A DNA stretch of 64,000 nucleotides from Nereocystis luetkeana (Eukaryota > Sar > Phaeophyceae > Laminariales > Laminariaceae), in contig JARUPZ010000016.1 in NCBI GenBank assembly GCA_031213475.1, positions 10,060,270 to 10,124,269 on the forward strand, read 5' to 3'. This document shows, in pieces, positions 39,561-64,000 of this stretch. Within the stretch, counting starts at the first letter, position 1. Each line of letters begins with the position of its first letter. Position numbers and translations under genes: made by a program. The notes beneath the pieces are model-generated. The model was not told the DNA's origin, searched no databases, and saw nothing but the letters and a program-made list of their open reading frames with translations.

Positions 39561-42500
39561 TGGAGTAGGAGCAGCGGTCACCCCTAGCCTCCCTGTGCAA
39601 CGGCGCTGTGCTTGGTTTGGGCGTTAGGAGTTTAGTGAGCTGCGTGCCGATGCTCCTGCAGCTGTGTGCTGTGCTTCGAAGAACAAATTACGCGTGATGC
39701 TCTGCACTTTCTGCTGACTGGGCTGTGCGTGCTCTTTTTTGTTTATCGAGGTTGTCACAGGATATATGTTGCAGGTTGATTGCCGACACAAGAAATACCT
39801 GGTACGCGGATAAACCACCAGTATATACCACCAAGTAGTTGGATTCCAGTTGGTCGCCGATGTTTACGCGAGTCGACGAGGGAAGAAAGGGCTGAAGCAT
39901 TTTCGCGATAAAAATGCCTCCCAAGGCAAGAAACGTAGTGGGGAGGGGCGAGAAATGCCTGCTGTGTGACCGAGGATCTGAGTTACGACTATTATGGGGG
40001 GCTATAGTAAATAGGACCTATGGTACACACAAAAACCTATGTATTTACCCAATTTTACTGACAATATTTGGCCCTATTTACTATGGTCCCCCGTCATAGT
40101 CGGAAGGAGAGAGAAGAGAAGGACGAATATTATTAAGGGGATAGAAACAAAACTGACTGTCAGAAAAGTTCCCAGTGACACAGGTATATATACCCACCGG
40201 CAATGTCTCCTCTGCTGCTGCTGTATCGTATCGTATGTACCTGGTATACAACAACAGAGGCAGAGCAGGAGGAGTGTCCGTCGTACTACCAGCACGCACC
40301 TGATAGTAGTAGTATCGTTTTGGCATGTTTTTTCGTGTTCGGTCCGGGAGCGTGTGTGCCCCGTCGACCTTCCAACACTTGGCATTGTATTTGCCCCCGA
40401 ACACCCACGGATATCAACTTATTGCAACATAATGATGCCTCCGAAGTAGAACTCTCGGCCACTCAGCCCCTTCACCCCTTCCCGGAACATGCGTGCAGGC
40501 GACAGCCTGCACACATACGCAGCCGTGTACGTCCATAGAAATGTAGATCGACAAGACATTTCCAACGTCACCATATTGGTTGTGTGCGCCCCCCTCCCCC
40601 CCCCCCCCCCCCGCCATGCTTTGGAGAAAATCTGCTCTTGATATCACCCCAGGAGGAGGTGTGTTGTATTAACCCTTTCAGACTTTTAGAAATGCAGTCC
40701 CGTTGTGGGGACAAATCACTCAAATTATAGGTAGCTTGTTTTATAGACGGGACTGTGATCCTAAAAAGGGTGAAGTGTAATTGGTGCAGCGCACGTGCGG
40801 AGACCTTTGTACTGCATGGTGTGACAGTCCGAGTACCGGGTGCATCCCGTAACTCAGCAGCCGGAGCTGCTTGGTGTTACCAATGCTGTGATGGTCACTT
40901 TCTCCCCCCACATGTCCCCCCTGACGTCCCACAGCCACTGTTGGTTGTGTCGCACTACAGCAGTGCCCGCTCCTGCCGTTGTCTTTCAATGTATCTGGGT
41001 TGCTAGAGCGTTTGTGGTGTGCCTGTCGTATCCAGTACGAGGGCATGACATTGCATTGTCTGCTCTGCAGTATCTCTGTGTCGTAGTTTTGTGACCACCT
41101 ACTTTGTATCTCTCTTCTATTTCGGGGGACCTTAGTAAATTGGACCAAATATTGTTTGTAGAAAGAGGGCAATATATAGATTCTTGTGTGTACCGTAGGT
41201 CATATTTACTTTGGTCCCCAGTAAATAATAGGATGAAGAACCGGCCCGGACACTGGGTGTGCTGGATGTCGACGGGTAGAAAGAGCGGTTCAATGTGAAG
41301 AACACGCTCACGCCACACCAAGTCGCGTGATTCCCCAACAGGTTCCGAAGTCCCTGAAGGGCTGAACGAGTTGATTAGCTCTGGCTCCAATATCGATTGC
41401 GCACTCGCTTGGTGATCGAACACCTTCGACTCACGGCAAACCCATCCCACCCTCTGCCCTTGCGGCTTGTGTTGTGTCCTCCCCAGGTGTACGTGAGTTG
41501 GTTCGACACCTCTGTCAACAACTTCACATTGGCCGCGGCCAACGTCATCTACCTGGGCGAGGTGTGGTATGGAGAATGCCGCCAAAGTCAAGCTGTATGA
41601 TACGGTATTGAATTATATTTTACGTGCGGACGAGGGTCTCTATCGGTTTTGTCGGCGTTCTTTAAATACGATATACCTGGTTTGTATACACCGAATGAAC
41701 CGCGGGGGCGAAGCCGAGAGGTGAGAGCCGCTGCTTTTCCTTCGCTTGAAGGGCTTCGCCTCCCGACAACGGTCAGCGGTTAATGCGTTGGGTGCTGCTT
41801 CGACCGGACTGTCGTGAAGGACTATATGTGTCGCACGAATCTCTCACGTGCAGCATGCATGCATACCGGGTGCCACGAACCAGGTATAAGGTATATATTG
41901 TATGTTCATCGACCAGGTATGTTGTTTGCTGCCGGAAGGGTTCCAGGGTAGGCCGACATCCAACCAGACGTACACGGTGGGGGCCGGCCCTATGAATGGG
42001 TGACGTTCGCCGTTCAGCATTGGCAACACCTTCAGTTGGTCGAATGCACGCATACTCGGAGACGCCTGATGTCATGGTTGTTTATTTTATACCAGGTATG
42101 GGGTACCAGGGACGGGGTACCAGGGACGGCAAGGAACCACGGGCCATACATTGCCTACGGAGGGGGGGCGCTACTCTCCCCATCCGTAGGCAATGTGTGA
42201 CCCGTGATAAGCCCCCGCCCACAGAGTGTGAACGGATTGTGATCCCATGCTCCAGGTGTTTTACGTAGGCCCAAACCCATCACTACCAGCTGCACGTCCG
42301 ATCAAGAAGTCAACTGAACGTGACGGTTTCAATCTTGAATCGATTTCGAGCAATGGTTGTAGGGCCGCAAGATGTAGCCAACTCTGATCGCAAGTAGTTT
42401 GTCCCCCTCAAACTCTGCGTGCAGGCGGCCACCTAGCTGTGTAAAGGGGGGTCGATCTCAAACCGCAGTCCACGCGCCCCCCGTTCGCCCTGTCCTTGTA

Positions 42501-45425
42501 ACGTACCTGGTATTTTCTACCCGGTACAATGTATTCCGACTTTGAAAACGTGGGTTTCGGTCGGCAGTATTACCGGGTCCTCTCGGCCGCTCTGCTGCAC
42601 GGGGGCCTGATGCACATCGCGTTCAACATGATGTCCTTCCTGTCCATCGGGGCAAACCTGGTGAGCAACCGCTGGAGCGATGGCGCGCTTTGATGATCTT
42701 TGCTGCCACGAACAGTGTCGGGCACCGGGAGGGGCTCAGAAACAAAGATGCCATCATATCACAGGAGATCGGTTATTTTTGGGCGCGTCAAGGCCTGTCT
42801 TGGCCTTATTATACTATATTTAGTGAAGGGGGCGGTCAGTCGAGGGGTCGAACGGCGGTCTAGGAGACCGGTATTTCGGGCGTGTCAAGGCCGCTTTTGG
42901 CGGTGTTGTGCTGGTTTTAGTGTATGGGGCAAGTCAGTCAGTCAAGGGATAAAACGGCGGTCTAGGGGGCCGGTCTTATGGGGCGTGTCAAGGCCGCCTT
43001 CGGCCTTGTTCTACTGGTTTTAGTGGTGGGGGCAGTCAGTCAAGGGGTCAAAACCGCGCTCTCCTCTTTAATTATGTACCAGTAGAACGTTTGTGAAGAA
43101 GAAGTCGGAAATGCTTGTAGCGGTGAGGCGTGTGCACGGTTACCTCTTGTGCTCTCGCGCCAGAGTGTCCCGGGTCTCTCGAGCAGCCCATCATCGCGAC
43201 CGTCGGACTTCGACCTTTGCCGACCCTACGGCAGCATAGGCATGATCATAAAAACCTCGATTAAAGCCACATTGAACTGGGTGAAGCCGGAGTTCTTGTA
43301 CAATATGTGAAACAGGAGATTCTCGCCGTTCTAAAATCTCCTTTCTTGATTTTTTTTAATTATTTTTTAGCCCTTGCACCAACGCGCACGGTTGACGAAA
43401 GTTGCAGATACCCAGGGCTCTTGATGGGTCAGGAAGCTTTTGAAATATCACGGATCGGATCGGGTCGGGTCACCCTAACCCGACCCGACCAGGCCCGACC
43501 CGGCCCGCGAGATCTGACCTGACCCGTGAACAGCCCCGCCAATATCGACCAGCGCGAGTTCCTCGCGATAGTTTCAGAATCGAGCTCTACACCAATACCC
43601 CCGCCTGCCTACAGTGCGTGCTCGCCATCCCCTTTCACGCCAGCCCCGAGTACGACCGCTCCCGTTTCCACTGGAACGCAGGAGAGGAGCATTGGAACTC
43701 TGGCGCTGTTTTTCATTGTCCTGTGGTCCATCATCTTGGGGGGCGTTATCTACGTGGGGGCTGAATGGTGAGTGAAAATGTTTTAGTGCTGTCGCCCGCC
43801 GTATTGTGTTCTCGCCCCGAGGTGCTTCTGTTCAAATGCTTTACACGTCGGACAGATCTGATTCATAGATCAGGTAGATCATCTACAGATAGATCATCTA
43901 GATCCTACAGTAGCCTGCCGTTATGAGATGCTGCGCAGGATCTGCGTAAGTACAGATCACCGCAGGAAACGTGCCCTAAATCATGCTAATTGTACATCTC
44001 CCACGCGGCGACATGGGCCAATCGTACATCATACAGATCAGGGATCTGTCTGTGCTGAAATACCTAGATCATGCAGTGGGAATGATCTGTACATGATCTG
44101 TACATCATCTGTCCGATGTGTTAACTGTTTGGATATCCCCGTTGTATGGTGTGAAAGTCTGGGTCTGCCCGCTTTACTGTGTAAAACGTTTGCGATCTAC
44201 CCGTTATATTTGTTGGTGAAATGATAATGTTTGGATCCACCCGTCATTTTTCACTCTCGATTATAGTGGAAACCCTTTTGGGGACCAGGAATATGTAGCG
44301 ATCAACGATGTAAGACGTGCGGTTTCTTCCAACATTAACCCCTCCAGAGCTGCACCCATGTTTTGGGGGGGCAAAGAGTAGGTCACTTATCGGACAGACC
44401 CTCTGCAGATCATTCCCATTTCATGTTCTAGATCTTTCACGGCAGATAGATCAGATATATAATATATTTCTGATCTGTATGATCTAGCTCATGTTGCCGG
44501 ATGAAAGCCCTATAACCCGCATGATCTATTAGTAGAAGATGTTCCCTGGGTTCGATCTGTATTTTATTTACGGATCCTGTATAGCCCATCATAACGGCAG
44601 CTTAGGATCTAGATGATATATAGATAAATAGATGTATCATGCTCTGTCCGGGGTGTAAACCGCGTGGAATTTGTATCTAATGAGTTTCCCTGTTCTGTAT
44701 AAGAAGCGCAGAAATGCCAGGTGCTAAAGCTGCTTCGCAAGCTCTCATGTCCTCTATTTTTTTGCAGGTTGATGACGTGGGTGACCAATGACGCGCAGTA
44801 TGTCCACCAGCGCGTTGTCGGCTTCAGTGGGGTCATCTTTACGCTGGCTGTTATGGAGAGCTACAGATCAACACAACCCACACGCTCCGTGTTCGGCATG
44901 GTGCGAGTGCCCACCCGGGTGTATCCCTGGGTTCTCTTGATTGTGTTATCGGTGAGTAAAATGACCCAGCTGAACCGTAGAGGGGGGAAATATCGACACA
45001 AAAGTGATAATTACTGCGGTAAATATCAATACCATAGCAGTGGTCCCTCTATAGTACCGGCTCGGTAGTGCCAGCTGCCCGCTGTATACAGTGCCTGCTG
45101 TGAAATGGCTTGGCACAGATGGGATTATTGATCAGTGTGGCAGTGTACAGAGTACCGGTAGTGCCGGCTGCCGCTACATATAGTGCCGGCATTATTGCCT
45201 GGCGCATACCATACCGGCACTATAGAGGGAGCTTTACTACTGTAGTAGAGAGACCCTTTCGGTATCGCCAACACAAAACAGCCCGGGCTTCCCAGGTACG
45301 GGGCTTTCCGAAGCGTAACCAATATAAGGAGGCGTGTGCTGCCATGGGGCCATAGAGGTACCACGTTTCAGCCAAAAGTTGAATAATCTCTGTCTGACAG
45401 GGCTGCTCAGCTGAGCAACTAGCCA

Positions 45426-45471: not shown

Positions 45472-48400
45472 CCAGGTATATATTATGTATATACAAGGCG
45501 CTTCGCTCCGCGGGCGGCGTACGCTCGCTCAGGAAGGAAAAAAGTACATCAAATTATGCGAAGTGACAGAGGTCCACGATTGAGTTTAGGTCGTAATTGC
45601 AAACCGGCGACTTGATAATGCCAAGAGTCCCGCCGGCATGCTTCAGGAACAAACAGGTCCGACGCCAGCTCGAATGCCACATATGCGCTTCGCGTCGCGG
45701 ATGTCGTACGTACGTACATACCCCAGGTAGGATACTGCTGTCTGTACTTTTTTTCTTCTTTCGATATACTCTTATGTCTGTACACGTATACTATATAGGA
45801 AGAAGGCGAAATCACAGCACGGCACAGCAGCAAAACGCAAATGAAAATGAAACCGAAAACTCGGAAAGGGAAAAAAATCCCCGTCCCCTCTCGTGTAATA
45901 AGTTTCTGCCTGATTGGAACACCTTGCACCCGGTCAAAAAGAAGAAAAGAAAAAAAACGCACAGAAGAGCTTCTCTCTCAGCCTCGTACGCCGTCTGCCC
46001 CTCTCGCGACCACCTCGCTACCGATTCGGTCCGGGTAAAGCTTTTATCACTCTCTGCCACAATCAGCCCCGTCGCCCGCCCCGCGTGAAGCCCGGTGCTC
46101 ACCGTGGCCGTCGTTCGCCAGCTCGATAACGTTGGTGTTCCAACTGCACACCTCCCTCTTTCAACTTCAGCGTGGTCGCAAAAATAAGCACCGCTATAAT
46201 AGCATATTGCCCTCCTGAACGACCTTTATAAACTCGTACATACTCTATCAACAATCATAAATCGAAGCCAGACAAAGCCCGTTCATGCATCCCTCGTGTC
46301 TCGAGGCACACGCGACGCCTAGGCACGAAAGCGGCGACCGCGCTCCTTGCAACCTCCCCTCTACCCGCCAGCACCCGCTGACACCCGCGACGGTGCCGGG
46401 TCCTCCCGCGATGCCGTGCTCGGAGAACACGCACGCACACGAAACGAAAGAAGAAAAAAGGAAGAAAGGACCGAGAAAACAAAGAACAACTGCTGGAAAG
46501 GTCCGGCAAGTAATGAAAGGAGGCGGTTTTGAAGTGGGAGCTCTGAGAGGCCAGGGATGCACCAACCGAGCACGCTCAGGGGTTGTGATCTAAGTATGTA
46601 GTTCTACATTTGTTTTTGTTCAATCTGTTTCGGGTTATATAGTATCAGTGCCCAGAATGATTATGAAAATTGGCCTGTTGACCCGAGTAGCATCCAGGGG
46701 AGTCACTGGAAGGTTAACAAGGAATTACAGACCCTTGTACAGAATACGCGAAAACGGCTTATCGTACAACTTGTAAAATTCAGTAAAAATAGGGTATAGA
46801 CGAGACGTATTATCGTATGCAGCTTGCAAAGTTGAGTATCAATTACTTAATCAGTCGAACTCACAGCTGACGTATTTCATCATTTTATCAAATCTGTTTC
46901 GTCGTATACCTAAGGCCATGAGACCGGGCCGTTCATCAACTGTTCATGTCCTTTGGACTGGTCGTTCTTGTGTTTCTTGAAAAAAAACATTTTTCTTTGT
47001 TCTGGATGAGGTACAGGTACAGGTAGGTCTAGAGATCCTGTACTCGTAGCCTTTAGAACCGCAGTCCCGATTTGGGGACAAAGTACTTGAAATTTGAGTG
47101 GATTGTCCCCAAAACGGGACTGCGGTTCTAAAGGGGTTAAGAGTCAGAGACAAATACAGTTGACCCTACCTTATGGGAAGGCGTCGAGGAGATGTACTTA
47201 CTGATTGATTGGCACGCTCTTATATACTATTACGGGGGACCATAGTTAACAGGACCAAATATTGTTAGTAAAAATGGTGAAACATATAGGTTTTTATGTG
47301 TATCATAGGTCCTGTTAACTATGGCCCCCCGTAATAATAGGCACTACAGTAGTACACTTCTATTACATACTGGTGCATAGTAATACATACTATTAATATT
47401 ACGGGGGGCCATAGTTAATAGGACCTGTGGTATACATCAAAACCTATATATTCAACCATTTTTACGAACAGTATGTGGTCCTATTAACTATGGTCCCCCG
47501 TAATTTTTTTTTAATATTTTTTTCAATATTACGAGGGACCATAGTTAAAACCGGTAGGACCAAATACTGTTCGTAAAAATGGTATTTATTACGGGGGACC
47601 ACAGTTAATAGGACCAAATACTGTTCATAAAAATGGTTAAATATGTAGGTTTTTATATTACGGGGGGCCATGGTTAATAGGACCAAATATTGTTAGTAGA
47701 AATGGTTGAATATATAGGTTTTTATGTATACCACAGGTCCTATTAACTATGGTCCCCCGTAGTGGAGTACGATCAAGGAGGCCCATATTAAGTAGGCCCA
47801 AAACAGGCCCAAATCACCCACTTTGGAAATGAGCTAATCTTGAGAACAACAATCCACGTTCGTCGCCACCAGGCGGTCATGCCGGACATCTCTTTCATGG
47901 GCCATCTGTCGGGCATCCTCGTTGGGGTCCTTCACGTCTACGGAGCCACGAAGCCGCTCCTGCCTTCTACAGGTCAGCCAGCCCGAAACAGCTCTGCGGT
48001 AGCTATTCCGTGCTTGCCGAATGACCATTATTTTTGCCGGCGCTGACCTGCGTTGGGTTGCGGTTCATGTAGCATCTGCGCGGGAGTTATTCCGTGCTTG
48101 CCGAATGCCCGTTATATTTGCCGAATGCCCAGTACTACTCGTGCGGTAAGGCGGCCGAATCTTACGGCTTTGGTTTCCGTAGGCTTGATGACTTGAAGCC
48201 GTTAATCGTTCGTTACACGAGCGAAGTACGGACCAGCTCTGGCATGTACCTGTTAGCTACGTGTGGCCTCTTTGCCTTTTCTATGGCACGTTATTTCTTG
48301 TATAACTACTCCTTGTGGCACGAGACCGATTACTCCTGTTAAGTACCGCCGAAATGATCCGACACGGATTCCAAGTACTTCCCCCCCAAAAAAAATGGGT

Positions 48401-49039
48401 GCAGCTGTTAACGGGTTAGTTATCCTCTGCCGCATGTTAATCGGAACGGGCTGTATCTACCAAAGTCCTGAATATTACTCTTACCCTGTCTGTTTTAACA
48501 CTTGATACTGACTTTGGTTCGCAAGCACATGCACTCGCGCAGAGTCGAATCCGATCTTTCGAGCTTAACGCTAGCCTTTACCCCTGTCTGTTTCAACGCC
48601 TCATACTGACTTTTTCTCGCAAGTACATGCACTCGCGCAGAGTCGCATCCGATCTCCCGAGCTTAATCCTAAGTTTCCCCCCCCCCCCCCGCGCCTATTT
48701 TAGTACCGCACATCGAGCTATGTTTGACCTACCGTAGATGCATTCGCGCAGTGTCGCATCCGGTGTACCAGCTACGTGCATGTGGAGCTTTTTCTAACCG
48801 GATGCAGCGTTTACAATGTGGGCATCTGGTGCATACGTACGCCGACTTCACTGTCTTTCTTATTTGAGGTGCACGATGTGCTTCAGTTATAATGTGTATC
48901 GTACACACCGTTTTGTACCAGGTATAGCATTGGCGAAGAAAAAAAAAATCGTGAGGCATTTTTCCACTCCATCGTTTTTTGGCAGCCTACCTGTCCTGTC
49001 CCCACAGATTTCATTTCGGCGATGACTTGACGCGAAAGC

Positions 49040-49110
<71 letters not shown>

Positions 49111-50532
49111 CTTCGTGGCGCTGTTGATCGATATTTGCGACCCCCCTTTTTTGTTGGTCTCTCTCTCTTGTGATTATTACGGGGGACCATAGTTAACAGG
49201 ACCTATGGTATACATAAAAACCTATATGTTTAACCATTTTCACTAACAATATTTGGTCCTGTTAACTATGGCCCCCCGTAACAGCTCACTATGCCGAGAT
49301 GGAGAGCTGCGAGTGGCTCCGGCACAATGTAGGGCAGAGGCGCAACTTTGTTTCCTGCCCTCTGGCGCTTCCGACAACCGGCGACGGATCGCCAGCTTCA
49401 AGGTGATGCCAATTTCCCGGTGCTCTGTCGCGTGGCGTCATAATCCGGCTTCGCTTTTTTTTTTGTGCAGTTCGATTGCTATCAACGTACCATGCTTCCC
49501 ATATATATATATGTGTGTATGCCGTTTGGATATCCATGTGATGTGCCATTCGATTCGTATCAACGTTCCTCCCTGCCGTTACATATCAGGACCGTTGGGG
49601 TTTTCGTATTTCTCAACCTGTCCTTTTATATAGTACCGGACAGAGTGCCATGATACGTAGAACTCGGGATTCCACGTCGCGAACCGATATTCCACGTCGC
49701 GAACCGATGGCGTTTTGAAGCTACAAAATCGATTCGTACACTACTTTACGTATCAGGTCTTTTGTATAGTACCGGGCAGAGTGCCATGATACGTAGAACT
49801 CGGGATTCCACGTCGCGAACCGATGGCGTTTTGAAGCTACAAAATCGATTCGTACACTACTTTACGTTTCAGGTGGGATACGAAGTCGGTGCTACGTACA
49901 CACGAGAGGTTGGGCATCCTGATTCGTTTTTGTTTTTTGTTTGTTTTTGCGTTTTTACGTGTTTTACGGCCAGCCCCTCAAAGTTTGATGCTAATCTGCT
50001 TCGCGAGACCGATGTATCCACCTCTCGGTGGTCAATTGCCGCTGCCTTCCCCCCTGCCCCCCAAGGTTCCCGCACCTTACGCGGCGATCTTCAACTGCGA
50101 CACAGATGGCCAGGACCCCCCCCCCCGCCCCTTGCACAATGTGGGCGTAAGCAAATCGTTGTGGAGACATTGAACAATGTAGCAAACCCCACAAGGTGTC
50201 AGCAACCTCTCAATTCGATACGCCTAGAGGTGTGCTACATTCTTCAATTTCTCCACAAGGCTTTTAATTACGCCCGTCATTGTGCAGAGGGAGGAGAGTC
50301 CCCGCCACCTGTGGGGACAGCCCAGCCCGGCCGATGAAAAGAGAGTGTGGTTGTCGGTAACTGTCGTCAACTCGCGCATAGGCGTACCTCTTCTCGTCAA
50401 ATTCTGCGCGTGTCGCCGGAAAGTCGGTCTCTTCAACCATCTCGAACGCGGTCTCTAACCTTGGCACCGTGCATGTTTTTCATAGAAACTTGAACCTGCA
50501 TTCGCACGTTGTCGAAGTTACGAGCAGGGCCT

Positions 50533-50598
<66 letters not shown>

Positions 50599-50897
50599 CC
50601 TCTCTTTCTCTATCTTTATCTCTCTCTGTCTCTCTTTCTCTCCCTCTCTTTCTTGCTCTCTCTCTCTCTTCCTCCCTTCCTCCTGTCCGCCGTCGACGTC
50701 ACAGCCCTTCTTTCCGACGGTCTTGCGGTTCAATATGCGTGTCAATCGGGACAGCTCGCCGATCGCTGCATGCCTTCGCTAGCAACACGGCTGCTGGTAT
50801 GCGCGGCTGGCGAAATGACCAGGCGGGGGCTGGAGCTAGAGATACTCCGGCCGGGGGGGCAGAAGCGAGCGGGAGGCTGCTAGACCCTCGAGCGTAA
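35851..50897 (+). CDS. Rhomboid intramembrane serine protease, RBL15-like, complete, 8 exons
   Basis: Membrane-embedded serine protease cleaving substrates within or near their transmembrane helices. Exons: 35851-35928, 41487-41561, 42568-42660, 43682-43767, 44768-44951, 47873-47972, 49285-49402, 50705-50897; 308 codons, all junctions GT-AG with matching phases. TM1 is VPLCTLSVATLCIGLQV (about 11-27). Exon 3 holds the HGGLMHIAFN motif (His62, His67, Asn71). Exon 5 holds GFSG with the nucleophile Ser131 and the string TRSVFGMVRVPTRVYPWVLL. Exon 6 holds MGHLSG with catalytic His183. The closest family known to me is plant RBL15 (At3g58460), by that string and by exon 7 (EMESCEWLRHNV). RBL15 ends in a UBA domain; this protein stops after a Gly/Ala/Arg-rich tail and none was found. 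Intron 1 is 5.56 kb. First and last exons are the least certain. Confidence 0.9.
36286..37050. mobile_element. Family E-type element, 765 bp
   Basis: AGGGCGTGGCGTGTCCAAACA-type left end and TGTTTGGACACGCCCT right end. Sub-terminal CGAAATCGAAAAATCG / CGATTTCGATTTTCG repeats are also inverted. Lies at the start of rhomboid intron 1. Confidence 0.75.
37051..37466. mobile_element. Family E element, reverse orientation, left end lost
   Basis: Reverse complement of the 23-kb copy from CCCCAGAGAGC to GGTTAAGACACGCCCT. It abuts the 765-bp element directly. Confidence 0.75.
37930..38240. repeat. Tandem duplication, 2 x about 135 bp
   Basis: ATCTGAACGGAACGCGTTGG and CTCTGAACGAAGCGCGCTGG open two units that both run through CACCCTAG, CAGTGCTCACA and GGTGGTATGTGGCGT. 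Confidence 0.75.
39519..39561. repeat. (CAG)n microsatellite
   Basis: About 14 CAG units in rhomboid intron 1. Confidence 0.9.
39861..40150 (+). mobile_element. Family D SINE, diverged, interrupted by a MITE
   Basis: TTACGCGAGTCGACGAGGGA, then CTGTGTGACCGAGGATCTGA, a MITE, then GGAAGGAGAGAGAAGAGAAG. Head absent. Confidence 0.75.
39992..40096. mobile_element. Family A MITE nested in a SINE
   Basis: TTATGGGGG to CCCCCGTCA with TA on each side, splitting a family D copy between GAGTTACGAC and GTCGGAAGGAGA. Confidence 0.9.
40669..40774. mobile_element. Family B MITE
   Basis: TTAA left, TGAA right; a few bases inserted after CCCTTT. Rhomboid intron 1. Confidence 0.8.
40985..41300 (+). repeat. 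Dispersed repeat M, copy with MITE insertion
   Basis: GTGCCTGTCGTATCCAGTAC and GGACACTGGGTGTGCTGGAT are shared in order with 51,627-51,985. Confidence 0.75.
41120..41225. mobile_element. Family A MITE with a paralogous empty site
   Basis: TTTCGGGGGACC to GGTCCCCAGTAAA with TA each side. The related sequence near 51,890 lacks the element at this place. Confidence 0.88.
41487..41561 (+). CDS. Rhomboid exon 2
   Basis: Residues 27-51, VYVSWFDTSVNNFTL and on, the loop after TM1. Acceptor CCTCCCCAG, donor GAG|GTGTGG, phase 0 both sides. The fit to the RBL15 loop is modest but phase and order are right. Confidence 0.8.
42138..42207. repeat. Perfect hairpin in rhomboid intron 2
   Basis: CACGGGCCATACATTGCCTA pairs with TAGGCAATGTGTGACCCGTG with one or two mismatches, loop about 22 bp. 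Confidence 0.85.
42568..42660 (+). CDS. Rhomboid exon 3 (HxxxxHxxxN motif)
   Basis: Residues 52-82, YYRVLSAALLHGGLMHIAFN and on, TM2. The acceptor CGGCAG is short. An ATG 33 bp upstream would give a frame lacking TM1, so splicing to exon 2 is preferred. Donor CTG|GTGAGC. Confidence 0.92.
42775..43062 (+). repeat. Tandem repeat, 3 x about 90 bp
   Basis: Units contain GGGCGTGTCAAGGCCG, then TTTTAGTG and GTCAGTCAAGGGGTC, then ACGGCGGTCTAGG. Rhomboid intron 3. Confidence 0.85.
43400..43545. repeat. Family F element, short form
   Basis: CAGGGCTCTTGATGGGTC, ATCACGGATCGGATCGGG, CCGTGAACAGCCCCGCC. Rhomboid intron 3, about 135 bp before exon 4. Confidence 0.7.
43682..43767 (+). CDS. Rhomboid exon 4
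   Basis: Residues 83-110 plus two bases of Trp111, ERSIGTLALFFIVLWSIILG, TM3. Acceptor GGAACGCAG, donor TG|GTGAGT. Confidence 0.88.
43843..44121. mobile_element. Family C element, complete
   Basis: ACACGTCGGACAGATC to CATCTGTCCGATGTGT, an inverted repeat of about 16 bp, 279 bp in all. Rhomboid intron 4. Confidence 0.82.
44335..44385. mobile_element. Family B MITE fragment
   Basis: TTAACCCCTCCAGAGCTGCA with ATGTTTTGGGG, left half only. Confidence 0.5.
44383..44662. mobile_element. Family C element
   Basis: TATCGGACAGACCCTCTGC to ATGCTCTGTCCGGGGTGT, opposite orientation to the neighbouring copy 260 bp away. Confidence 0.78.
44768..44951 (+). CDS. Rhomboid exon 5 (GxSG nucleophile)
   Basis: Completes Trp111 and encodes residues 112-172 with RVVGFSGVIF (Ser131) and YPWVLLIVLS. 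Acceptor TTTTTTTGCAG, donor TCG|GTGAGT. Confidence 0.96.
45040..45235. mobile_element. Small inverted-repeat element
   Basis: GGTCCCTCTATAGTACCGGC against ACCGGCACTATAGAGGGAGC, with GTGCCGGCTGCCG repeats between. A related half is near 28,282. Confidence 0.65.
45429..45468. repeat. (TA)n microsatellite
   Basis: About 20 units in rhomboid intron 5, running into ACCAGGTATA. Confidence 0.95.
47048..47140. mobile_element. Family B MITE
   Basis: Right TTAA intact, left replaced by TAGC; ends otherwise perfect. Rhomboid intron 5. Confidence 0.87.
47230..47334. mobile_element. Family A MITE
   Basis: First of a cluster in rhomboid intron 5. Both ends perfect, TA each side. Confidence 0.92.
47399..47503. 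mobile_element. Family A MITE
   Basis: Second of the cluster, opposite core orientation, TA on the left. Confidence 0.92.
47528..47762. mobile_element. Three family A MITEs, two truncated, one complete
   Basis: Left-end fragments start near 47,528 and 47,585, each cut off after the core. A full copy runs 47,658-47,762 with right end CCCCCGTAG. Looks like serial insertion of the element into its own copies. Confidence 0.85.
47873..47972 (+). CDS. Rhomboid exon 6 (catalytic His)
   Basis: Residues 173-205 plus one base of Ala206, AVMPDISFMGHLSGILVGVL. His183 of MGHLSG completes the Ser-His dyad. Acceptor CGCCACCAG, donor AG|GTCAGC. Confidence 0.94.
47990..48130. repeat. Short tandem copies of TTCCGTGCTTGCCGAATG
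   Basis: The 18-mer occurs twice, with a further TTGCCGAATGCCC, in rhomboid intron 6. Confidence 0.7.
48480..48765. repeat. Tandem repeat, 2-3 x about 110 bp
   Basis: CCTGTCTGTTT, ATACTGACTTT, CATGCACTCGCGCAGAGTCG, TCCGATCT, CGAGCTTAA repeat twice; a third CATTCGCGCAGTGTCGCATC follows. Confidence 0.85.
49038..49110. repeat. (CAA)n microsatellite
   Basis: About 24 units in rhomboid intron 6. Confidence 0.95.
49177..49281. mobile_element. Family A MITE against a splice acceptor
   Basis: TTACGGGGGACC to GGCCCCCCGTAA, TA on the left and CA on the right. The AG of rhomboid exon 7 follows immediately. Confidence 0.93.
49285..49402 (+). CDS. Rhomboid exon 7
   Basis: Residues 206-244 plus two bases of Ser245, HYAEMESCEWLRHNVGQRR and on, matching the region after TM6 of RBL15. 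The acceptor CAG lies 3 bases past the end of a family A MITE. Donor AG|GTGATG. Confidence 0.85.
49621..49873 (+). repeat. Tandem duplication, 136 + 115 bp
   Basis: TATAGTACCGG, CAGAGTGCCATGATACGTAG, then ACACTACTTTACGT, twice; the first unit has an extra 21-bp ATTCCACGTCGCGAACCGAT copy. Rhomboid intron 7. Confidence 0.9.
50095..50235 (+). repeat. Dispersed repeat N, copy 1
   Basis: GATGGCCAGGACC, a C run, TGCACAATGTGGGCGTA, TTGAACAATGTAGC; shared with 52,450-52,615. Confidence 0.7.
50536..50690 (+). repeat. (TC)n tract of about 150 bp
   Basis: Almost pure pyrimidine, ending about 15 bp before the acceptor of rhomboid exon 8. Confidence 0.95.
50705..50897 (+). CDS. Rhomboid exon 8 (stop codon)
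   Basis: Completes Ser245 and encodes residues 246-308, a soluble tail rich in Ser, Ala, Gly and Arg ending ASGRLLDPRA then TAA. The acceptor GACGTCACAG follows about 150 bp of pure CT-type tract. A further exon cannot be excluded. Confidence 0.75.
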
Positions 50898-51626
50898 AGA
50901 CGCCATCCATCTCTTTGTAATCATATTTGTTTCCTGAGGTGTTTTTCCACTCCAGAGTTGTTCTAGGCTGCATTATTATGACCACGGACTGCTGTAGACT
51001 TTGTGTATGACTTGGCGCAAGAACAGCACCGAACGAGACCATCAGATTTCGTGGCCACGGCGGGCTAGATAGATTTCTTGGAAGTCAGCTACGCACGGGA
51101 GTGAAAACATGAGAACATACCTGGTATTACGAACGGACCATGCGGTTAATATGGCGGAACCACGCACGATAATATTTGGCCTAAAAAGGCAATTTTTTAA
51201 TCTGTCGGTACTCGTACCGGTTCGGTTTAGATAGCGAGGACTTGCTGCTTTCTTTTTTAACGTCTGCAGGAAACTTGGTGTCGGGCCTGATCATACGGTC
51301 CGCATCGGCAGCGTTTTTGTACGTTCGGGAGGAAATCCGGTTCGATACATGGCGTTTTTGTACATTTTGAGGAAAATTGCAGTCAAATCTGCTATGAAGA
51401 GTTGCTTTTCGCGCAAGCGTGCACCATCGGTCCTCTCTCTGCCTTGGATTTTCGCCGAATTCATCCATACAATTTCGCTCTGGTGTCTTTGGAGATGGGG
51501 TCGTGCAGAGCCGACGGCCTTCTGCGCTTGGTAGACCGGTACTTTCTTGGTGCCATAAGCAGTGGGGTCGAGCGGTATATACTCCCGAGGGGTTCGCGCC
51601 CGTCTGTGTTTCGATTTTTCTCTCTT

Positions 51627-51985
51627 TCATAAATTGTGCAGCCGTGCCTGTCGTATCCAGTACGATGACATGGCACTGCGTTGTCTACTCTGCTCACTGC
51701 AATAATAATGTTGTATCTGTGCTGTGTCGTACAGTAGCTTTTCATAAATTGTGCAGCCGTGCCTGTCGTATCCAGTACGATGACATGGCACTGCGTTGTC
51801 TACTCTGCTCACTTCATCATAATGTTGTATCTGTGCTGTGTCGTACAGTACCTGGTAGCTTTTTTTCACGACAGAGCTTGTATCTCTGTACATTAGGATT
51901 AAGGAAGAGGCGCGGACACTGGTTGTGCTGGATGTCTACGGGTACAAAAAATGGTTTAAATACGAAGAACACACACACCGCCGTC
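51627..51985 (+). repeat. Dispersed repeat M, copy with tandem head
   Basis: A 114-bp unit with TTCATAAATTGTGCAGCCGT is doubled, followed by GGACACTGGTTGTGCTGGAT. No MITE here. Confidence 0.8.
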
Positions 51986-52089
51986 CCAGTGCTTCGTGCT
52001 TCGCGCCTGTGTACGCCTGTTTTCGGTGCTCTCTCACAGAAGGGTGACGAGCACAGTCAGAAATTATTCACGCATCGGGAAGATCGCAA

Positions 52090-52428
52090 TCTAGACCATC
52101 TAATTAATCTACTATCTTTTCTTGCCGTTACAAGGTCCTGCGCAGGATCTGTCTACAACCTAGCTTGCCGCTGTGAGACGCTGTGCAGGATCTGTGTACG
52201 AGGTGTATCTTGCCGTTATGATATGCTACTGCTGTGTAGGATCTGTAGAGTACAAGACCCGACCCAGGAAACATGCTCTATTAGATCGTGCTGGTTATAT
52301 ACGGTTCCCACCCGGCAACGTTAGCTACTAGGATACAGATCAGTGATATATCGGCCCTAAAATATCTAGGTGATAAAGTGGGATATGATCTATATGTATC
52401 TGATTTATCTGATCTGTTCAATGTGTAC
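52090..52428. mobile_element. Family C element, expanded
   Basis: The segment CTTGCCGTTA...GCAGGATCTGT occurs three times in a row before the rest of the element. Confidence 0.65.
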
Positions 52429-52449
52429 ATTTTTATAAGGCTGTAGTAA

Positions 52450-52615
52450 GACTCAAGTGGCAGCTGTGTAGAAACACAGGTGGCCGGGACCCCCCCCCCC
52501 CCCCTTGCATAATGTGGGCGTAGACGCATCCTTGGAGAGATGTTGAACAATGTAGCGCGCCGGTAGGCGTACCGAATTGAGAGGTTGTTGACACCTTGTG
52601 GGGTGCTCTACAGTG
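52450..52615 (+). repeat. Dispersed repeat N, copy 2
   Basis: GGTGGCCGGGACC, a C run, TGCATAATGTGGGCGTA, TTGAACAATGTAGC; its right part is inverted relative to copy 1. Confidence 0.7.
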
Positions 52616-52734
52616 TTCAAGGCCTCCACTATTAATAGTTGTTTTTTTTCATAGCCACTTTTTGCAAGGGGGGTACCTGTGTTTGAAAGTCAACCCAGAG
52701 GGGGGTCACTACTAATACCGATAGCGTCGGGTTT

Positions 52735-52870
52735 GTCCACTTCTCGGACATACCAAATCAGATCAGATCAGATCTGAATAGATCCCCAATTCATTTTCTA
52801 CAGCAGATTATTCATACATCAAGCAGATCCCCGATGTTGTAAGTATGATCTGCACGATGTATAGTGGATA
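52735..52870. mobile_element. Family C fragment
   Basis: CTTCTCGGACATACC with AGATC repeats, then ATGATCTGCACGATGTATAG; truncated. Confidence 0.5.
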
Positions 52871-52905
52871 ATATTTTCCGGCGGGTGCGATGGGTATGAC
52901 GCGGC

Positions 52906-52993
52906 TCTCAACTATTTTAGGACTGCAGCTCCGCTTGGAGACAAACCACCCTAACTACAATTAGCTTGTCCCCAAAACGGATCTCCTAAAACG
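52906..52993. mobile_element. Family B MITE, diverged
   Basis: ATTTTAGGACTGCAGCTCCG on the left, CCCCAAAACGGATCTCCTAAAA on the right with part of the end deleted. Confidence 0.65.
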
Positions 52994-53123
52994 TTCGCTA
53001 GGTAAGACCAATGACTCCCACGGTAGAGGTTGCAGTTTTTTGCCTTCTGAGGCAGTTTTTTTTCCGACCGGTTGAGGTCCTCAAGTGTCCAACTACCTCA
53101 AGGTTAGCGAGCTATCTTCACTA

Positions 53124-53228
53124 TTACGGGGGGCCATAGTAAATAGGACCAAATATTGTTAGTAAAAATAGGTAGATGCATAGGTTTTTGTGTCTACTGT
53201 AGGTCCTATATACTATGGTCCCCCGTAA
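53124..53228. mobile_element. Family A MITE
   Basis: Near-perfect ends, TA each side, intergenic. Confidence 0.93.
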
Positions 53229-53489
53229 TACTGTTGGCCGGGTTTCGCGAACATTCTTACTCGAGGTAATGCTCCTGATGAGAGTCGGGAGGCATTGCGC
53301 TCCTCGGGGAAGGAGCTAAGGGAATAAGTCACCGCCCCTACCACCGAATCTTATGGCACGGTTCTTGCGCAACGTATGATAACCAGCAAAAAAGTAGGGT
53401 CTCCAGGGTGGATTATCTACCGTACTGTCGATCCTCTGGTCTGTCCGATTTGTGCCCATTATTGGTGTCGGGATTGTGCATCACTACTA

Positions 53490-53594
53490 TTACGGGGGAC
53501 CATAGTTAATAGGACCAAATATTGGTAGTAAAAATGGTCAAATATATAGGTTTTTATGTACACCACAGGTCCTATTAACTATGGTCCCCCGTAA
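53490..53594. mobile_element. Family A MITE
   Basis: Perfect ends, TA each side; an ACCAGGTATA motif touches the right end. Confidence 0.93.
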
Positions 53595-53877
53595 TACCAG
53601 GTATAGTAGTAGTGTCGGGATTGTTTCGGTACCGTTAGTGTCAGGCTCCTGCTCGGGCGATTTCATGTTTTTTTGACGCACAGAGACCGTCTCATATTAT
53701 GATGCGTACACAAATAGTCGCGGTTTAATCTATATCACCACCCTCCTACCAGGCATCGATGGTGTAAACTCTTCTCCGATGGAAAACGCCCACTTGGCTT
53801 TGTTCAAATATACTACTGCTACTGCTGCTGCTACTACTACTAATATGATACTACTACAGTACTACTACTGTACCTGG

Positions 53878-54110
53878 TGCACGATTCGACACGAGTCAAC
53901 TAGGGGAAAAATGAGTACACTAGTTCTCTCGCGATAAAAATGTAAGGTAAGAACCGTACTGTAGTGGCCAGGGGGGAGGAGAGCCTGCTATGTCACCCCG
54001 GATCTAAGTTGCAACTATTGATAAGAGGAGAGAAAAGAAGGGCAAAGAAAATGAATAGGATGGGAAACACATATAGGCCCATAGATACTGAGGAGCGCGA
54101 AACTAAAGGT
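53878..54110 (+). mobile_element. Family D SINE, old copy
   Basis: CACGATTCGACACGAGTCAA, CTCTCGCGATAAAAATG and TGCTATGTCACCCCGGATCT in order. Confidence 0.7.
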
Positions 54111-54479
54111 ATGACGCGGAATTCCCACGGATGCATTCCCACGCGGAATACCCACCCACGCACGCAAAAAAAAACACCCGTGGTATATATATATATACCC
54201 ACGCGGAAAATCATCGGATCATACATCGAAGTATACTCCCAGGCGGGAAGCCGACAGAAAAACCCCACTGGAAAAAATGTGCCAACAACTGGTTTTGGTA
54301 TTTCTGTTCTGGATCGGAACGCGACATTGTGAACGTTTCTTTCTCGCCCGTCTCTTTAGAGCGATTGGTTTTATTTCTCGTGTGTTCTGCCACGTTGCTC
54401 CTTTTGTCCTACTCCAAGAAAAAAAAAAAATGTTCACACACTTTCAGTTCAAGTAGCTTGCCCCCCCCCAAATAAAGTG

Positions 54480-54770
54480 GGTGCAGGTCCAATCCAAATG
54501 AGGTGACCCCTTTCCGGGACCCCGAGACAGGGCAAAACACAATGGTTGGTAACTTTGGTGTCATCAACCATCTACGAGGGGCGCGAGTGAGCGTTCCAGC
54601 AAAAGCACGGGCGGGACCGTTGCTGCTGGCCGTGCTGCCGTACGATTCCTTGCTTTCAACCATCGTAACTCGGACACCAACCATTGCTTCCTCCCCCAAT
54701 CCCGCAAGAGGCCACAACAAATGGTGGACATAACCGTCACTTTTTATCGTATCTTTTTCCCCTCTCAAGT
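54480..54770 (+). repeat. Dispersed repeat P, copy 1
   Basis: GTGGGTGCAGGTCC, AATGGTTGGTAACTTTGGTG, CATCAACCATC, later ACCGTCACTTTTTATC; shared with 55,195-55,410. Confidence 0.65.
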
Positions 54771-55067
54771 ATGATCAAGCCTCGAGGGAATTAGCCCCTG
54801 TAGGAAGGACCTCGCTCCCGTTTCGAGGACACAGCAGCACTACTGTACCACTCGGAAATATAAATGTGTGAAATACGTTTCTGTGGTCATAAGTGCGGCA
54901 CTATATAATAAGGGTTGACGCTGCCACCAGCACGGAGGATGCGCTCTTCGACAAAACATGGTATTGCTGTCATACAGCATCAGCCAAGATACGCCCCCCC
55001 CCCCCGGGGGTCCCAACAAACCTCTCATGCCACACAGGGGGGGGAGGGGGGGGTACTCGATAGGAGA

Positions 55068-55130
55068 GATGTACTCGATCTCATGCATGGCCGCAGCCGT
55101 ATGACAAGGGGGGGGGGGGGGGGGGTTACC
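55068..55130 (+). repeat. Family H fragment with poly(G)
   Basis: GTACTCGATCTCATGCATGG, CCGCAGCCGTATGAC then 18 G. Confidence 0.55.
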
Positions 55131-55194
55131 ATTTAAGAGAGGGAGGCGTGAGGACTAGTAATAGTAGACCTCTCCTGAACCCTTCGGGTGTTGA

Positions 55195-55410
55195 AGACAG
55201 CGACCACACCTATGGTTGGTAACTTTGGTGGCATCAACCATTGAACCGTCTACCATTAATAGGAGCAGCGTGAGCGCCCAGACGTACCGGAACATCGTAT
55301 CACCCTCCTCTTCTCCGAATCACGCAGTGGCGGTTGGTGAAACCGTCACTTTTCACCTCTCAATTTTGCCCCTCTGATTGCCCAACAGGGTCAAACCGGA
55401 ATGGGTGCAG
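55195..55410 (+). repeat. Dispersed repeat P, copy 2
   Basis: TATGGTTGGTAACTTTGGTG, CATCAACCATTG, later ACCGTCACTTTTCACCTC and GGGTGCAGC. Confidence 0.65.
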
Positions 55411-55686
55411 CTTTCAGTGTCCGTGGGTGGGGTACCTCAGGCCACGTAGACCTCCTCCCTTAAACCGGAATGGTCTACTAGTACACTGGTAGCGTTTAGT
55501 ATGACTGCGCGAAAAATCCCATTGAGCCACTCTAAAATCGGCGTTTCTCTTCCAAAAAATCCCATTGACCCTCTCCAAAATCGGCCATTTCTCTTCCAAA
55601 AAAACGAGATCTCCCAGGTCGTGGCAGCAGTCCACACTGGTTGCCCGACTCATCAAGACTAAAATTCCCCCCCTTGGGTGGGACTG

Positions 55687-56062
55687 CTAAACGTCGTGGT
55701 AGATCGAGCACTCCCTCAATTCCTGGAAAATATCTTCAGGCTTTGAGCGCCGCTTTCCCCCTCCCTCTCCGGCCTCCTTTTTCTCATTCCCGTCCGGGCT
55801 TCCGCCTCCTCCCTTGGTCTTTTTTCTCGCGCGTCTGGTAGTCCTGGCTCTAGTTTTCTGGGAAGTTTTAGTTTTCTGGGAAGTCTTTCGGGCGTGCTCC
55901 CTGCCCGCGGCGACGACGCTCTCAGAGCCGCTACTGGCTTTCTCGCCTTCCTGGTTGCTCCTGTCCGATTCCGCCCTATCTTCCTCGCTAGTCTCTTTGT
56001 TCCGTGCTCGCACTTCAGACTCCTTGCGTTTTTCATCGCGACGTCTGCTGGCGGCTACAAAC
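55687..56062 (-). CDS. GCK-like gene, terminal exon
   Basis: Completes an Arg codon and gives 124 residues, FVAASRRRDEKRKESEVRA and on, a strongly charged tail ending ELRECSIYHDV then TAG. Acceptor CCCCCCAACAG. Contains a short internal duplication (KTSQKT twice). Confidence 0.75.
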
Positions 56063-59000
56063 CTGTTGGGGGGTTTCCACATGATAATGAGGGAAGATGA
56101 AAAATAGTGAGGCAAGGTGGCAAGGTGGGCAGACAGAATATAACCCCTCGAACAGATATTGAGTGAGTGTTGGCGAGCGAGATGAGGCAGGGAAGTGTGC
56201 AAGGTCTGTAGCGTTGGACGTCGTCATAGACAGTTTCGATATATCTTAAGTATCGGTGATGCATGTCGTATTGAAAAGTTCACACATCGGACAGATAATC
56301 GATTTCCATTTATGATCAATATTTCTGGGCAGATAGATCAGATAGATAAGATTCTTGATCTGTACGATGCAGATAATGTTTTAGGGTGGGAGCCGTATAG
56401 TCTGTATGATCTAGAGAAAGTTTCCTGGGCTGAATATCTACGATACACATCCTGCACAACTTACCATGACGGCAACTTAGGATCTAGACGATCTAGATTC
56501 TCTATACAACCTAGATGGTCTATCTGTCCGATGTGTGGGAAGTTTCAATACACCGAAACATCGGATTTTCCGATGTATCGCGTTTTGCCCTCCATCCCCT
56601 GGCATCCCCATATGTTTTATGCTCGTACTGAACGAAAAGTTTCGAGGTATCGACATCGAGGTCGTATAATTTGTTTTTTGGTTTTCGTATCGATACAGTA
56701 TCGTAAAAAAAGTGAGAATACCGTATCGAATAAATTTCTCGTTCATGAGAATCGTATTGTATTGAATACATTTTTCGTTTGTCGATACCATATCCAAGTG
56801 CTGTGTCTGGGTTCTTCACGCTACCTCGTTATTTTCTACCCGTCAACATCTACTGCTGTAGACGTATCGACTATCGAAATGATATTTATTGGAATGTTTT
56901 GTGCAATCCATATCGTATCGTATATCGACTACCGAAATCGTATTATTTTGATGTTTCGCTTGTCGATATCGTGTCAAGCTCCATTCTCGTGCGATATCCA
57001 CCACTATTAATAGTGCAAGTAGACTCGGTCGCGGACACAAAAAGAAACAAAACATAAATCCCGGTTACGGATAGAACCAGTAGGAAGGTATGCAGGTAAA
57101 CCTCGTCACATAGCGGCAGTGCTTACGAACGGCTTGGTCCAACTTGGGAAAAAAAACGGTTGAAAGTCCAAATTAACTCTTCATTACCTCAGCCATCTTC
57201 CTTCCAACCATTTTCTCCGGCGGTCGGAGTCAGGGCTTAGGGCTAACGTTAAAGTACTCCAGGACCGTTCACGGGTCGGGTCAGACCTCGCGGGTCAGGT
57301 CGAGTCGGATCGGGTAAGTTTGACCAGGTCGGGCCCGTGAGGGTTTGAAAATCTCCTGACACGAGCCGATCCGTGATACTCCAATTTTTTTCTGGCCCGT
57401 GAAATGCCTCGGTATGTATCTTTCAACCCTTTTAGTCGAACAGGTGGGATAAGGTCTGCTTCAACCATGATACGGCCCTCTCAGTTAGAGAAATGCAAAC
57501 GATATTTTGGAAATGTTGAGCAGTTGCGCAACTTGAGGAGGGAACATCAGGAGCGCCATCCCTGTCGCAGGCAGCACGCGCCAACCCAAACCCTCCCTAT
57601 CGCAGCACGCGTCTACCCAGCGCCTTCAGACCCTCCACCTTCGAAAAATGTCACCACACGGGCTAGCCTCGAAATGCGCGCAGACGGCGCACGTCGAAGC
57701 TTCCCAATCTTCCTCCCTCTTTCCCCCTGCACCCGCGGTATCCCGGCAGCGGGTGGTGGCCCCATCCACCCAATCCGCGCGGCAAATGGTTCCGCTCACG
57801 CTGATGGGCTCTTGCAGCCTGGCATACGCCCCCTCTTCCCTAGGGAACTGTCTGCCGTGCACCAACAAGGGCGAGAGCATGCCCTGCCACAAATCCTGAT
57901 AGAGGGGGGGAGGCGTATCGGGGGGGGGGGGGGGGGGGGGGGGCATTTATTTTTTCGCCGTAGTAAGTTGCACGATTGACCACGCATCCGTTTCGAGACG
58001 GAACACCGTTCCTACTCCTAATGGAAACACCTCCAAAATTTGGGCGCTCAGTACGCTTTTCCTGGATACTACGAGTACATAGATATTGTTTTTGCTTGCC
58101 TCATCCCCTTCCTGCTTCGCCGTCTGTGGCCACCGTCTATCCCCTGAGATGGCGATCGTTTGTCTCGCTACTACTGTATCTAATGCACCCAACTTCTACA
58201 TTGTCACATTCGTCTTTCGTCCTCGTCTCCTCTAGACGGGGGGGGGGGGGGTGCACTCATGGCAGGCGTGGCCGTCGTCGTATGCATGACCATAGACCCT
58301 CGCACCCCTACAATGCCGGGACGGACCACGTCGAGTTTTCACACGGACCACGTCGAGTTTTCACCGACCAGGCAGAAATTGACCGCTTGCACCACAAGCG
58401 CGAAGCGAAACGTGAGGTGTTCGGCGAGTTGAAAAAAGAGCGAGCTGTCTGCTGCATGAATAAGAACCACTTGTGAGGCGAGTTTCGGCACCTTGCGCGT
58501 ACAATCTTGCATATGGGTGACAACATCGAATGGAGTGCGGGGGGGGGGCGTGTACTCGAAATCATGCATGGCCGTAGTCATACGACCATAGACCCTCGCA
58601 TCCCAACAACGCCGGGACGGAGTATACTGGGGGTTTCCACGGGACCAGGCAGACATTGGCTGCACCAAGCGAGGGGGGGGGGGGTGCCCGCTATGTGACC
58701 CCGGATCTGAATTATGAAAGAGAGCGAGCAATAACAACACGTGGGACGGAACCAATCCGAGTGACTACGGGGGAGCATAGTAAACAGGACCCACGATACA
58801 CATGAAAAATCTACCAGTACATATTTCCCTATTTTTACCTTTAATAACAACACATCGTCCTCTTTACTATGGTCCCCCGTACCATGAAAGTGAGAGAGCT
58901 GGAGGGGTACGGCAAAGGCAACACAAGACGGGATGGGGGGGGGGGGGGGGAACGCCCGCCGTGGTACCTTCTTAGTCGCGCCCGCCTGCCTGATCTGCTG

Positions 59001-60101
59001 AATCAGCACAGTGCTCGCAAGGGGCCCCGGCCCATCGTTAATCGCCACCACCGCGTCGCCGACGTCGAGTTTGGGCGATATGTCAATCGCGGCCGACAGA
59101 GACATCGGCTTGACCTCGCCTCCGGCATGGGACACGGAGACGACAAGGGCGCGCCGCCCGGCGCTTGAGGCGTCTCCAGTCACCTGTTTGCGTTTTTTAA
59201 ATTATAATCACGAACGAATGCGAGTTTTTGTTTTTTTTTTCTTCATTTTTTTTTTACGGACGCGAAAAAAAAAGTAGAGACCCCTGCTTTTGAGTTGCCA
59301 GCAACGTCCGCCGAACGCCTTTAAAAGCTCCCCCGAAACACTGTTTCGGGGGATCATAGTTAATAGGACCAAATATTGTCAGTAAAAATGGTTTAACATA
59401 TACCCTGGTAGTTTTTTTTGTATACCATAGGTCCTATTAACTATGGTCCCCCGTAATAGTTTTATGCACGGACGATATAGATTAAGGCGGTGCGGTTTTT
59501 TTTTACAACCAACAACAGCGACTACCGTCCACTGTGAACGCACGCACACAAGCTGATCATGGTCACAAACACCCTGCCGCGCGAGTTCCTGAACAACGAC
59601 AGCGAATCTACTTCAACAATATATCCCACTCTTATTCCAAGTGTGTGCCACACTGCAGTACGTAGTTCGGTCACCAATAAATTCGATGTATTGTGGTCTT
59701 AACCCTCTTAGAACCGCAGTCCCGTTTTGGGGGCAAACCAGTCAAATTATAGGTAGTCTGTCCCCAAAACGGGACTGCGGTCCTATCAGGGTTAAGGCCA
59801 AGGTAGGACCTTTCTATAAATACAACGCACGCGACAAAAAAAACGCTCTGGGAAAAACGACCACGACGAGTTCATTCGCGTCTAAAAAATATGTTGAATT
59901 ACCCTCTTATGATCTATGATTTCTACATTAAGCTTTCACCCACGTATAATTCCGCCGTTTCACACGTTCAGTTGCCGTCTCCTCGGTATTTTTTTTTTCT
60001 GAAAGAAAATGGGAAATGTTCCTCGTCTCGACAAGATGAAAGGAGGCGGTCGCTCTTTCGGAGACAACAGCAGCAGTAGCAGCAGTAGCAATAGTATTAA
60101 T

Positions 60102-60136
<35 letters not shown>

Positions 60137-63594: not shown

Positions 63595-63781
63595 GTGGCA
63601 AACAACACGACGATGGAAGAAGCGTATGCTACCGCCAACCTGGCCATAACTCGACTTGCATCGGACGCAGAAGAGGAAGCTGGGTATCTGGAGAGCGAAA
63701 TTATCTTGCGATCTGTGCTGCACCGCCGACCTGTCGTTCTGGGTTTTGTGATGTCTACCTTTGCGAAGAGGCTTCAAGATG
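63595..63781 (+). CDS. Exon of an unidentified gene running off the window
   Basis: 62 codons plus one base, VANNTTMEEAYATANLAITR and on, then EIILRSVLHRRPVVLGFVMS. Acceptor GAGCCTCCAG, donor ATG|GTGAGC. Helical and acidic, and it looks like true coding sequence. I do not recognise the family; neighbouring exons would lie beyond 64 kb or upstream. Confidence 0.5.
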
Positions 63782-64000
63782 GTGAGCGTGGAGCGAAACG
63801 CACCAGGGGTGAGAGATGAGAGAGAGCGCAGCAGTATCGGCATGGGTGTGATGTGTCAAGGATAACCTTCTTGGATCGGATTGTTGTTTATGCTGAAGGC
63901 GCGGCAATGTATTACAGCAGTGGTGTAGGCGACAGCCGTAGCGTAGCGGAGTTGGCGTTGGATTGTGCACGTGCTAGCTTCAAGGTCCTGCGACCATTCC

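Follow-up and report, generated by a model that had tools for sequence, protein, structure and literature searches.

The window analyzed here, a stretch of 64,000 nucleotides on the plus strand (G000:C16:10060270-10124269) of a 465-Mb assembly of 1,987 contigs, which was also the genome searched, carries a gene for an RBL15-like rhomboid protease. Joining its exons gives a match to the Pfam rhomboid domain (PF01694, E 1.6e-26), and the sequence contains both GFSG and GHLSG, the GxSG and histidine motifs of rhomboids, which we take to have catalytic roles. On the plus strand, exon 4 lies at 43682-43767, exon 5, with GFSG, at 44768-44951, and exon 6, with GHLSG, at 47873-47972, where it ends in the donor CTACAG/GTCAGC; the exon boundaries, those of exon 7 included, were read by eye, and the phases are consistent across exons 4, 5, 6, and 7. 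Exon 7, of 118 nt (49285-49402, plus strand), begins CTCACTATGCC and ends in the consensus-like donor CAAG/GTGATG. It is separated from exon 6 by an intron of 1,312 nt that starts at 47973. When the donor at 47972 is joined to 49285, the frame is open across the resulting junction, AVMPDISFMGHLSGILVGVLHVYGATKPLLPST/AHYAEMESCEWLRHNVGQRRNFVSCPLALPTTGDGSPAS, which bears out the statement in a preliminary description of this DNA that the reading frame is unbroken. Four AGs lie between 49140 and 49300, and a single one of them, the CAG at 49282-49284, keeps the frame. Exon starts at 49193 and 49200, behind the two AGs that lie within the MITE described below, run into in-frame stops, and use of the AG that ends at 49298 would put the exon out of frame.

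The placement of exon 7 can be judged against an unverified Arabidopsis RBL15 sequence. The alignment to this protein is ungapped across the exon 6-7 junction, with a one-residue gap later, within exon 7. Exon 7 scores 41 against the tail of this RBL15, a value reached by 7 of 20,000 shuffles, compared with 17 and 18 for the two remaining frames; it is also the best RBL15 match among the plus-strand open stretches of at least 15 codons from 47973 to 52500. Its codon usage is weak (-0.09, versus 0.05 to 0.68 in 15 training exons), with 180 of 5,000 intronic segments scoring as high or higher. A Pfam scan that included exon 7 returned no credible match, and a simple search for motifs of the C-terminal UBA domain of RBL15-like proteases in the unspliced plus frames from 49403 to 64000 returned no UBA-like match. 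A protein search of the genome recovered five exon stretches of the gene within the window, on contig C16, a single clear, distant paralogue on contig C20 (E 9.7e-9 and 3.7e-4), and five further weak matches (E 0.07 to 4.4); no empty allele or second copy of the rhomboid locus emerged from this one search.

The last part of intron 6 is formed by a MITE copy of 105 bp (49177-49281, plus strand), TTACGGGGG...CCCCCCGTAA (also written TTACGGGGGACCATAGTTAACAGGACC...GGTCCTGTTAACTATGGCCCCCCGTAA), which begins 1,204 nt downstream of the intron start. The element ends in ...GGCCCCCCGTAA, with its last base at 49281, the CAG follows at 49282-49284, and exon 7 starts at 49285; the direct succession of element, acceptor, and exon reported in the preliminary description is thus what the locus contains, with no gap. 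The copy is bounded by terminal inverted repeats of 27 nt (left, 49177-49203; right, 49255-49281; both on the plus strand), which differ by one mismatch and make up the 5' and 3' arms of a predicted RNA stem, and it is too short to encode a transposase. Its boundaries follow from flank variation and from two copies, at loci L005 and L006, that are nested inside other copies of the family. The element represents a genuine family, chance being excluded by the copy counts: the element end followed by YAG has 22,927 exact matches in the genome (11,457 + 11,470) and the reversed pattern has 0. The family thus shows the high number of near-identical copies that is typical of MITEs. Among 100 listed matches, the YAG at the element end is TAG in 98 and CAG in the other 2. 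Viral contigs yielded six pattern matches, none of which was confirmed.

Our sample of the family consists of the window and 70 loci, which together hold 109 distinct copies, distinctness being judged on the element together with 25 nt of flank at either end. At least 11 other fetched copies, in distinct places, are identical over all 105 bp to the copy at 49177-49281; they come from the best-scoring matches of a similarity search, in which 40 of 1,344 candidates were scored. These 11 identical copies indicate that the family has been active recently, and the insertion at 49177-49281 itself looks young. Family copies also occur in arrays. Whole and partial copies, both head to tail and inverted, form a cluster within intron 5 at 47225-47769, immediately upstream of exon 6, and locus L026 (859-1712) holds a tandem array of several near-identical copies with shared flanks at a spacing of about 214 bp. 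A second short inverted-repeat family, D4, has seven copies in the window (21993-22097, 25047-25151, 26566-26670, 30912-31016, 40677-40781, 47044-47148, and 59699-59803).

The anatomy of the copy can be read directly from the DNA; the history of its insertion we infer from the flanks of the family. TA stands on both sides of 84 of the 109 distinct copies, as is characteristic of a MITE target-site duplication, and TA on the left is paired with CA on the right in 12 of the 109; (C/T)TA...TAG flanks are found in 48. By source, TA/TA flanks are seen in 22 of 23 copies from loci picked by pattern for a YAG at the element end, in 57 of 71 from loci picked by a similarity search whose query contained the CAG, which over-represents CAG flanks there, and in 5 of the 15 window copies, which are mostly older, so that the rule is poorly visible in older copies. 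Both the element boundaries and the TA duplication are fixed by the two nested copies, which read ATTGTTA, element, TAGTAAAAAT, versus an uninterrupted ATTGTTAGTAAAAAT in the family copy at 47225. TA duplication is a mark of the Tc1/mariner superfamily, and by this duplication and its inverted repeats the MITE appears to be Tc1/mariner-like.

Because the family duplicates TA, often within (C/T)TAG, the copy in front of exon 7 would sit within the acceptor's own TAG. The TA at 49175-49176 would be the left copy of the target duplication and the CA at 49282-49283 the right one, presumably after a change of T to C, and the acceptor CAG at 49282-49284 would be made up of the duplicated TA (now CA) and a G of the host (all on the plus strand). 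That the CAG might be element sequence was considered and rejected: the bases beyond CGTAA vary among copies, and the nested copies at L005 and L006 indicate one TA, not two, where the site is uninterrupted. Since the flanks of this copy are TA/CA, the target-duplication reading requires one substitution. The simplest empty site is accordingly TCTCTCTCTCTTGTGATTAG/CTCAC, followed later by a single change of T to C; a less simple alternative begins with gattaCAG/CTC and loses a TA later, and here too the acceptor AG would be host sequence. That the element arrived by insertion, as the preliminary description proposed, agrees with every criterion that the genome itself offers. A right-hand CA in place of TA recurs in copies from several loci (49282 in L001, and L027, L028, L030, L032, L033, L034, L039, and L040), and these copies differ elsewhere. 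The same base would thus have changed from T to C repeatedly, although part of the excess comes from the CAG-containing query.

An insertion of this kind would leave the splicing signals of intron 6 rearranged. The putative old polypyrimidine tract, TCTCTCTCTCTT (49158-49169, plus strand), now lies 107 nt farther upstream of the acceptor than before the insertion. On an ad hoc pyrimidine count, the acceptor obtained by joining the flanks, TCTCTCTCTCTTGTGATTAG/CTC, has a tract score of 13.4, level with the highest among 12 other acceptors, whose scores run from 6 to 13.4. Nine of these 12 come from the CCT1 gene of the window and were placed by eye on a tblastn alignment with an unverified human protein sequence, a tenth CCT1 acceptor being left out of the set. 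By the same count, the present context scores 7.4, with three of the 12 acceptors weaker and nine higher. The preliminary description had the earlier acceptor context replaced or displaced. Displacement, by 107 nt, is the part that stands, and not replacement. All of the 105 nt preceding the CAG are indeed MITE sequence, but its view that the terminal repeat provides the pyrimidines goes further than the sequence shows: the tract there scores 7.4, its C-run falls in a predicted stem, and the old tract could still be usable if the hairpin closes. Within the MITE, CTAAC at 49243-49247 (plus strand) is a good branch-point candidate: its A (49246) lies 38 nt before the acceptor G, no AG intervenes, and it is predicted to be unpaired with a probability of 0.91 to 0.99. 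Upstream of the old tract, no clear branch point is seen, with one TTGAT in 60 nt. The CCT1 (TCP-1 alpha) chaperonin gene itself occupies 15522-30399 on the plus strand of the window, with at least 11 exon stretches by tblastn with the human protein and Pfam Cpn60_TCP1 matches in three frames.

The RNA of the MITE has a predicted folding energy of -51.6 kcal/mol (z -9.7). In context, the predicted stem spans 49177-49281, flush with the CAG, and takes up the C-run of the right terminal repeat. The two internal AGs (49191-49192 and 49198-49199, plus strand), the use of which leads to in-frame stops, are paired in this stem, with an unpaired probability of 0.00 in all nine of the folds completed. 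Among 25 random AGs of intron 6 taken as a control, six also had an unpaired probability below 0.01, so the hidden AGs of the MITE are nothing special in this respect. The CAG is predicted to be accessible where the RNA ends at 49284 (unpaired probability 0.90 and 0.96) and to be mostly paired once the exon extends beyond a few bases (eight of the nine folds give 0.03 to 0.42). The TAG of the joined flanks is likewise predicted to be mostly paired.

We favor, with a probability of about 0.5, an explanation in which a recently active, TA-duplicating MITE inserted into the TA of a TAG acceptor of intron 6, with the acceptor rebuilt and splicing kept. One copy of the duplicated TA would have stayed at the left end of the element; since the TA is duplicated on insertion, the acceptor (now CAG) would have been rebuilt on the far side, at the right end, with the coding frame untouched. 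Splicing would then still join 47972 to 49285. In the further steps of this proposal, the strong old pyrimidine tract might continue to direct the first splicing step, and the MITE transcript would form a hairpin in which both internal AGs are concealed and 105 nt are folded away, such that the CAG at the hairpin foot would become the first accessible AG. Taken alone, the combination of a first step driven by the old tract and a hairpin that bridges to the CAG is tentative, its odds falling somewhat short of even. Work on yeast describes stems that lie between the branch point and the AG, and one that covers a cryptic 3' site (PMC12350175). It is conceivable, if quite improbable, that the MITE is altogether self-bridging and splicing neutral, its (C/T)TAG target and TA duplication fitting TAG acceptors, its hairpin hiding its own AGs, and the later T-to-C change having been selected because it strengthened the acceptor.

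Much the same signals admit a reading, possible and yet on the unlikely side, in which the MITE supplies a full new 3' splice site from the CTAAC, a weak tract, GGTCCTGTTAACTATGGCCCCCC, and the rebuilt CAG, with the old tract unused. The spacing of the CTAAC, the lack of an AG between it and the acceptor, and its predicted accessibility would suit such a site, and a tract of 7.4 is inside the range of the other acceptors; however, this tract and the last 27 nt make up the 3' arm of a stem that is predicted to be very stable, and most of the other acceptors (9 of 12) score above it. Alternatively, the insertion may have damaged the gene, an outcome that we regard as unlikely. The old tract would then pick the AG at 49192 or 49199, or exon 7, whose 118 nt make its loss frame-breaking, would be skipped, and most transcripts would carry early stops from a young allele that is perhaps not fixed. 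In-frame stops do follow both internal AGs, and identity to 11 other copies implies that selection has had little time to act. A SINE at an intron-exon boundary that leads to an alternative acceptor in the canine Merle allele, according to the accessible part of that report (PMC6091007), provides a precedent. Both the pairing of the internal AGs in nine of nine folds and the rebuilding of the acceptor as a CAG weigh on the other side, though damage is still compatible with them.

It may also be asked whether 49285 is a real acceptor at all, or whether exon 7 has been misread, with the true exon elsewhere and the MITE an ordinary intronic copy. The weak codon usage of exon 7 and the absence of a credible match in the Pfam scan that included it would be in line with such a misreading. 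Against this, the junction aligns without a gap to the RBL15 sequence, no open stretch from 47973 to 52500 matches that protein better, the phases fit, and the donor CAAG/GTGATG is consensus-like, all of which leaves this reading highly improbable.

If family ends served as acceptors in general, donor motifs should be found behind them in excess. For the one motif and one length band covered, AGGTRAG at 85-115 nt behind the element end plus YAG, the 22,927 ends yield 49 matches (29 + 20), at least two of these matches being one sequence that occurs on two contigs. The expected number is 69.5, given that 582,968 strand-bases contain 57 occurrences; hence, there is no excess. In a local test on 126 copies (some counted twice in overlapping loci) with 242 fully flanked ends, 50 of these ends are followed by an AG, an open frame, and a donor-like site. 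None of the 50 candidate stretches, versus 23 of 1,263 control stretches, has a codon usage of at least 0.2, and no convincing second case is found among them; exon 7, at -0.09, comes tenth in this set. Open frames of at least 35 codons begin at an element end in 84 cases; with 10 near-duplicates omitted, the other 74 were scanned with Pfam and gave no credible match, the best being to a low-complexity family (E 0.0029); since Pfam finds nothing credible on exon 7 either, this frame scan is insensitive. One candidate for a second case, a CVVCLEEY frame after CCCCGTAATAG at 2360-2256 on the minus strand of L006, was dropped: the one upstream donor seen by eye would lead to a stop after four codons, and it belongs to no Pfam family. 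With neither a donor-motif excess nor a second case, we reject the notion of family ends as general acceptors. On this evidence, acceptor insertion is a rare event and not an introner-like system. At G000:C3:14157479 and G000:C737:27699, which carry the same stretch, the element end lies about 30 nt before an acceptor-like CGTTTTCCTTCCCACTCACAG, and this copy may be near a branch-point position.

Several known systems show partial parallels to the preferred reading of a MITE within a TAG acceptor. The predicted hairpin resembles the yeast intron stem between branch point and AG that is proposed to shorten the effective distance; judging from the available portion of that work, however, the yeast stems are native intron structure backed by probing data (PMC12350175), whereas the stem here is predicted and would be contributed by a mobile element. 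As far as the accessible description goes, the non-autonomous Mariner-Tc1 elements of Ectocarpus are like this family in being abundant, short, DNA-type elements in an intron-rich genome; the likeness is one of description, and the example given measures 217 bp versus 105 bp here (PMC12477816). No splice-site case was found among these elements within the same portion of that source (PMC12477816). The canine Merle SINE in PMEL likewise lies between the old signals and the exon, at an intron-exon boundary, in the parts of the reports available (PMC6091007; PMC7349775). Merle, though, is a retroelement with an oligo(dT) tract, and its alternative acceptor adds 162 bp, again from the available part (PMC6091007); the present MITE is a DNA-type element with a TA duplication and a putative acceptor rebuilt in frame. 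In a literature search of open-licence papers, seen in part, no case came up in which an element that duplicates TA lies within a TAG acceptor.

Though it concerns one locus, this case suggests that a mobile element could become compatible with a splice site merely through the target it chooses: insertion into (C/T)TAG with TA duplication would leave a YAG behind, and the target preference coincides with the acceptor motif. The hairpin idea is open to testing, and the 22,927 exact end matches make the tolerance of hairpin-forming insertions at acceptors testable genome-wide. A further comparison is with introners, which the accessible text of one study describes as short, inverted-repeat DNA transposons that generate introns and whose splice sites may come from the target-site duplication (PMC9860276). 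This MITE shares with them its short inverted-repeat form and a splice site that would derive from the target duplication (PMC9860276). Its copies do not serve as splice sites in numbers, as the 49 donor motifs against about 70 expected and the lack of a second case indicate, nor has it created an intron in coding sequence, as the intron starts upstream and no donor stands at its left end. Whereas an introner, on that account, becomes a whole new intron (PMC9860276), this MITE is placed at the 3' end of a preexisting intron of 1,312 nt. A MITE lodged in an acceptor in this manner might represent a half-step towards introners.
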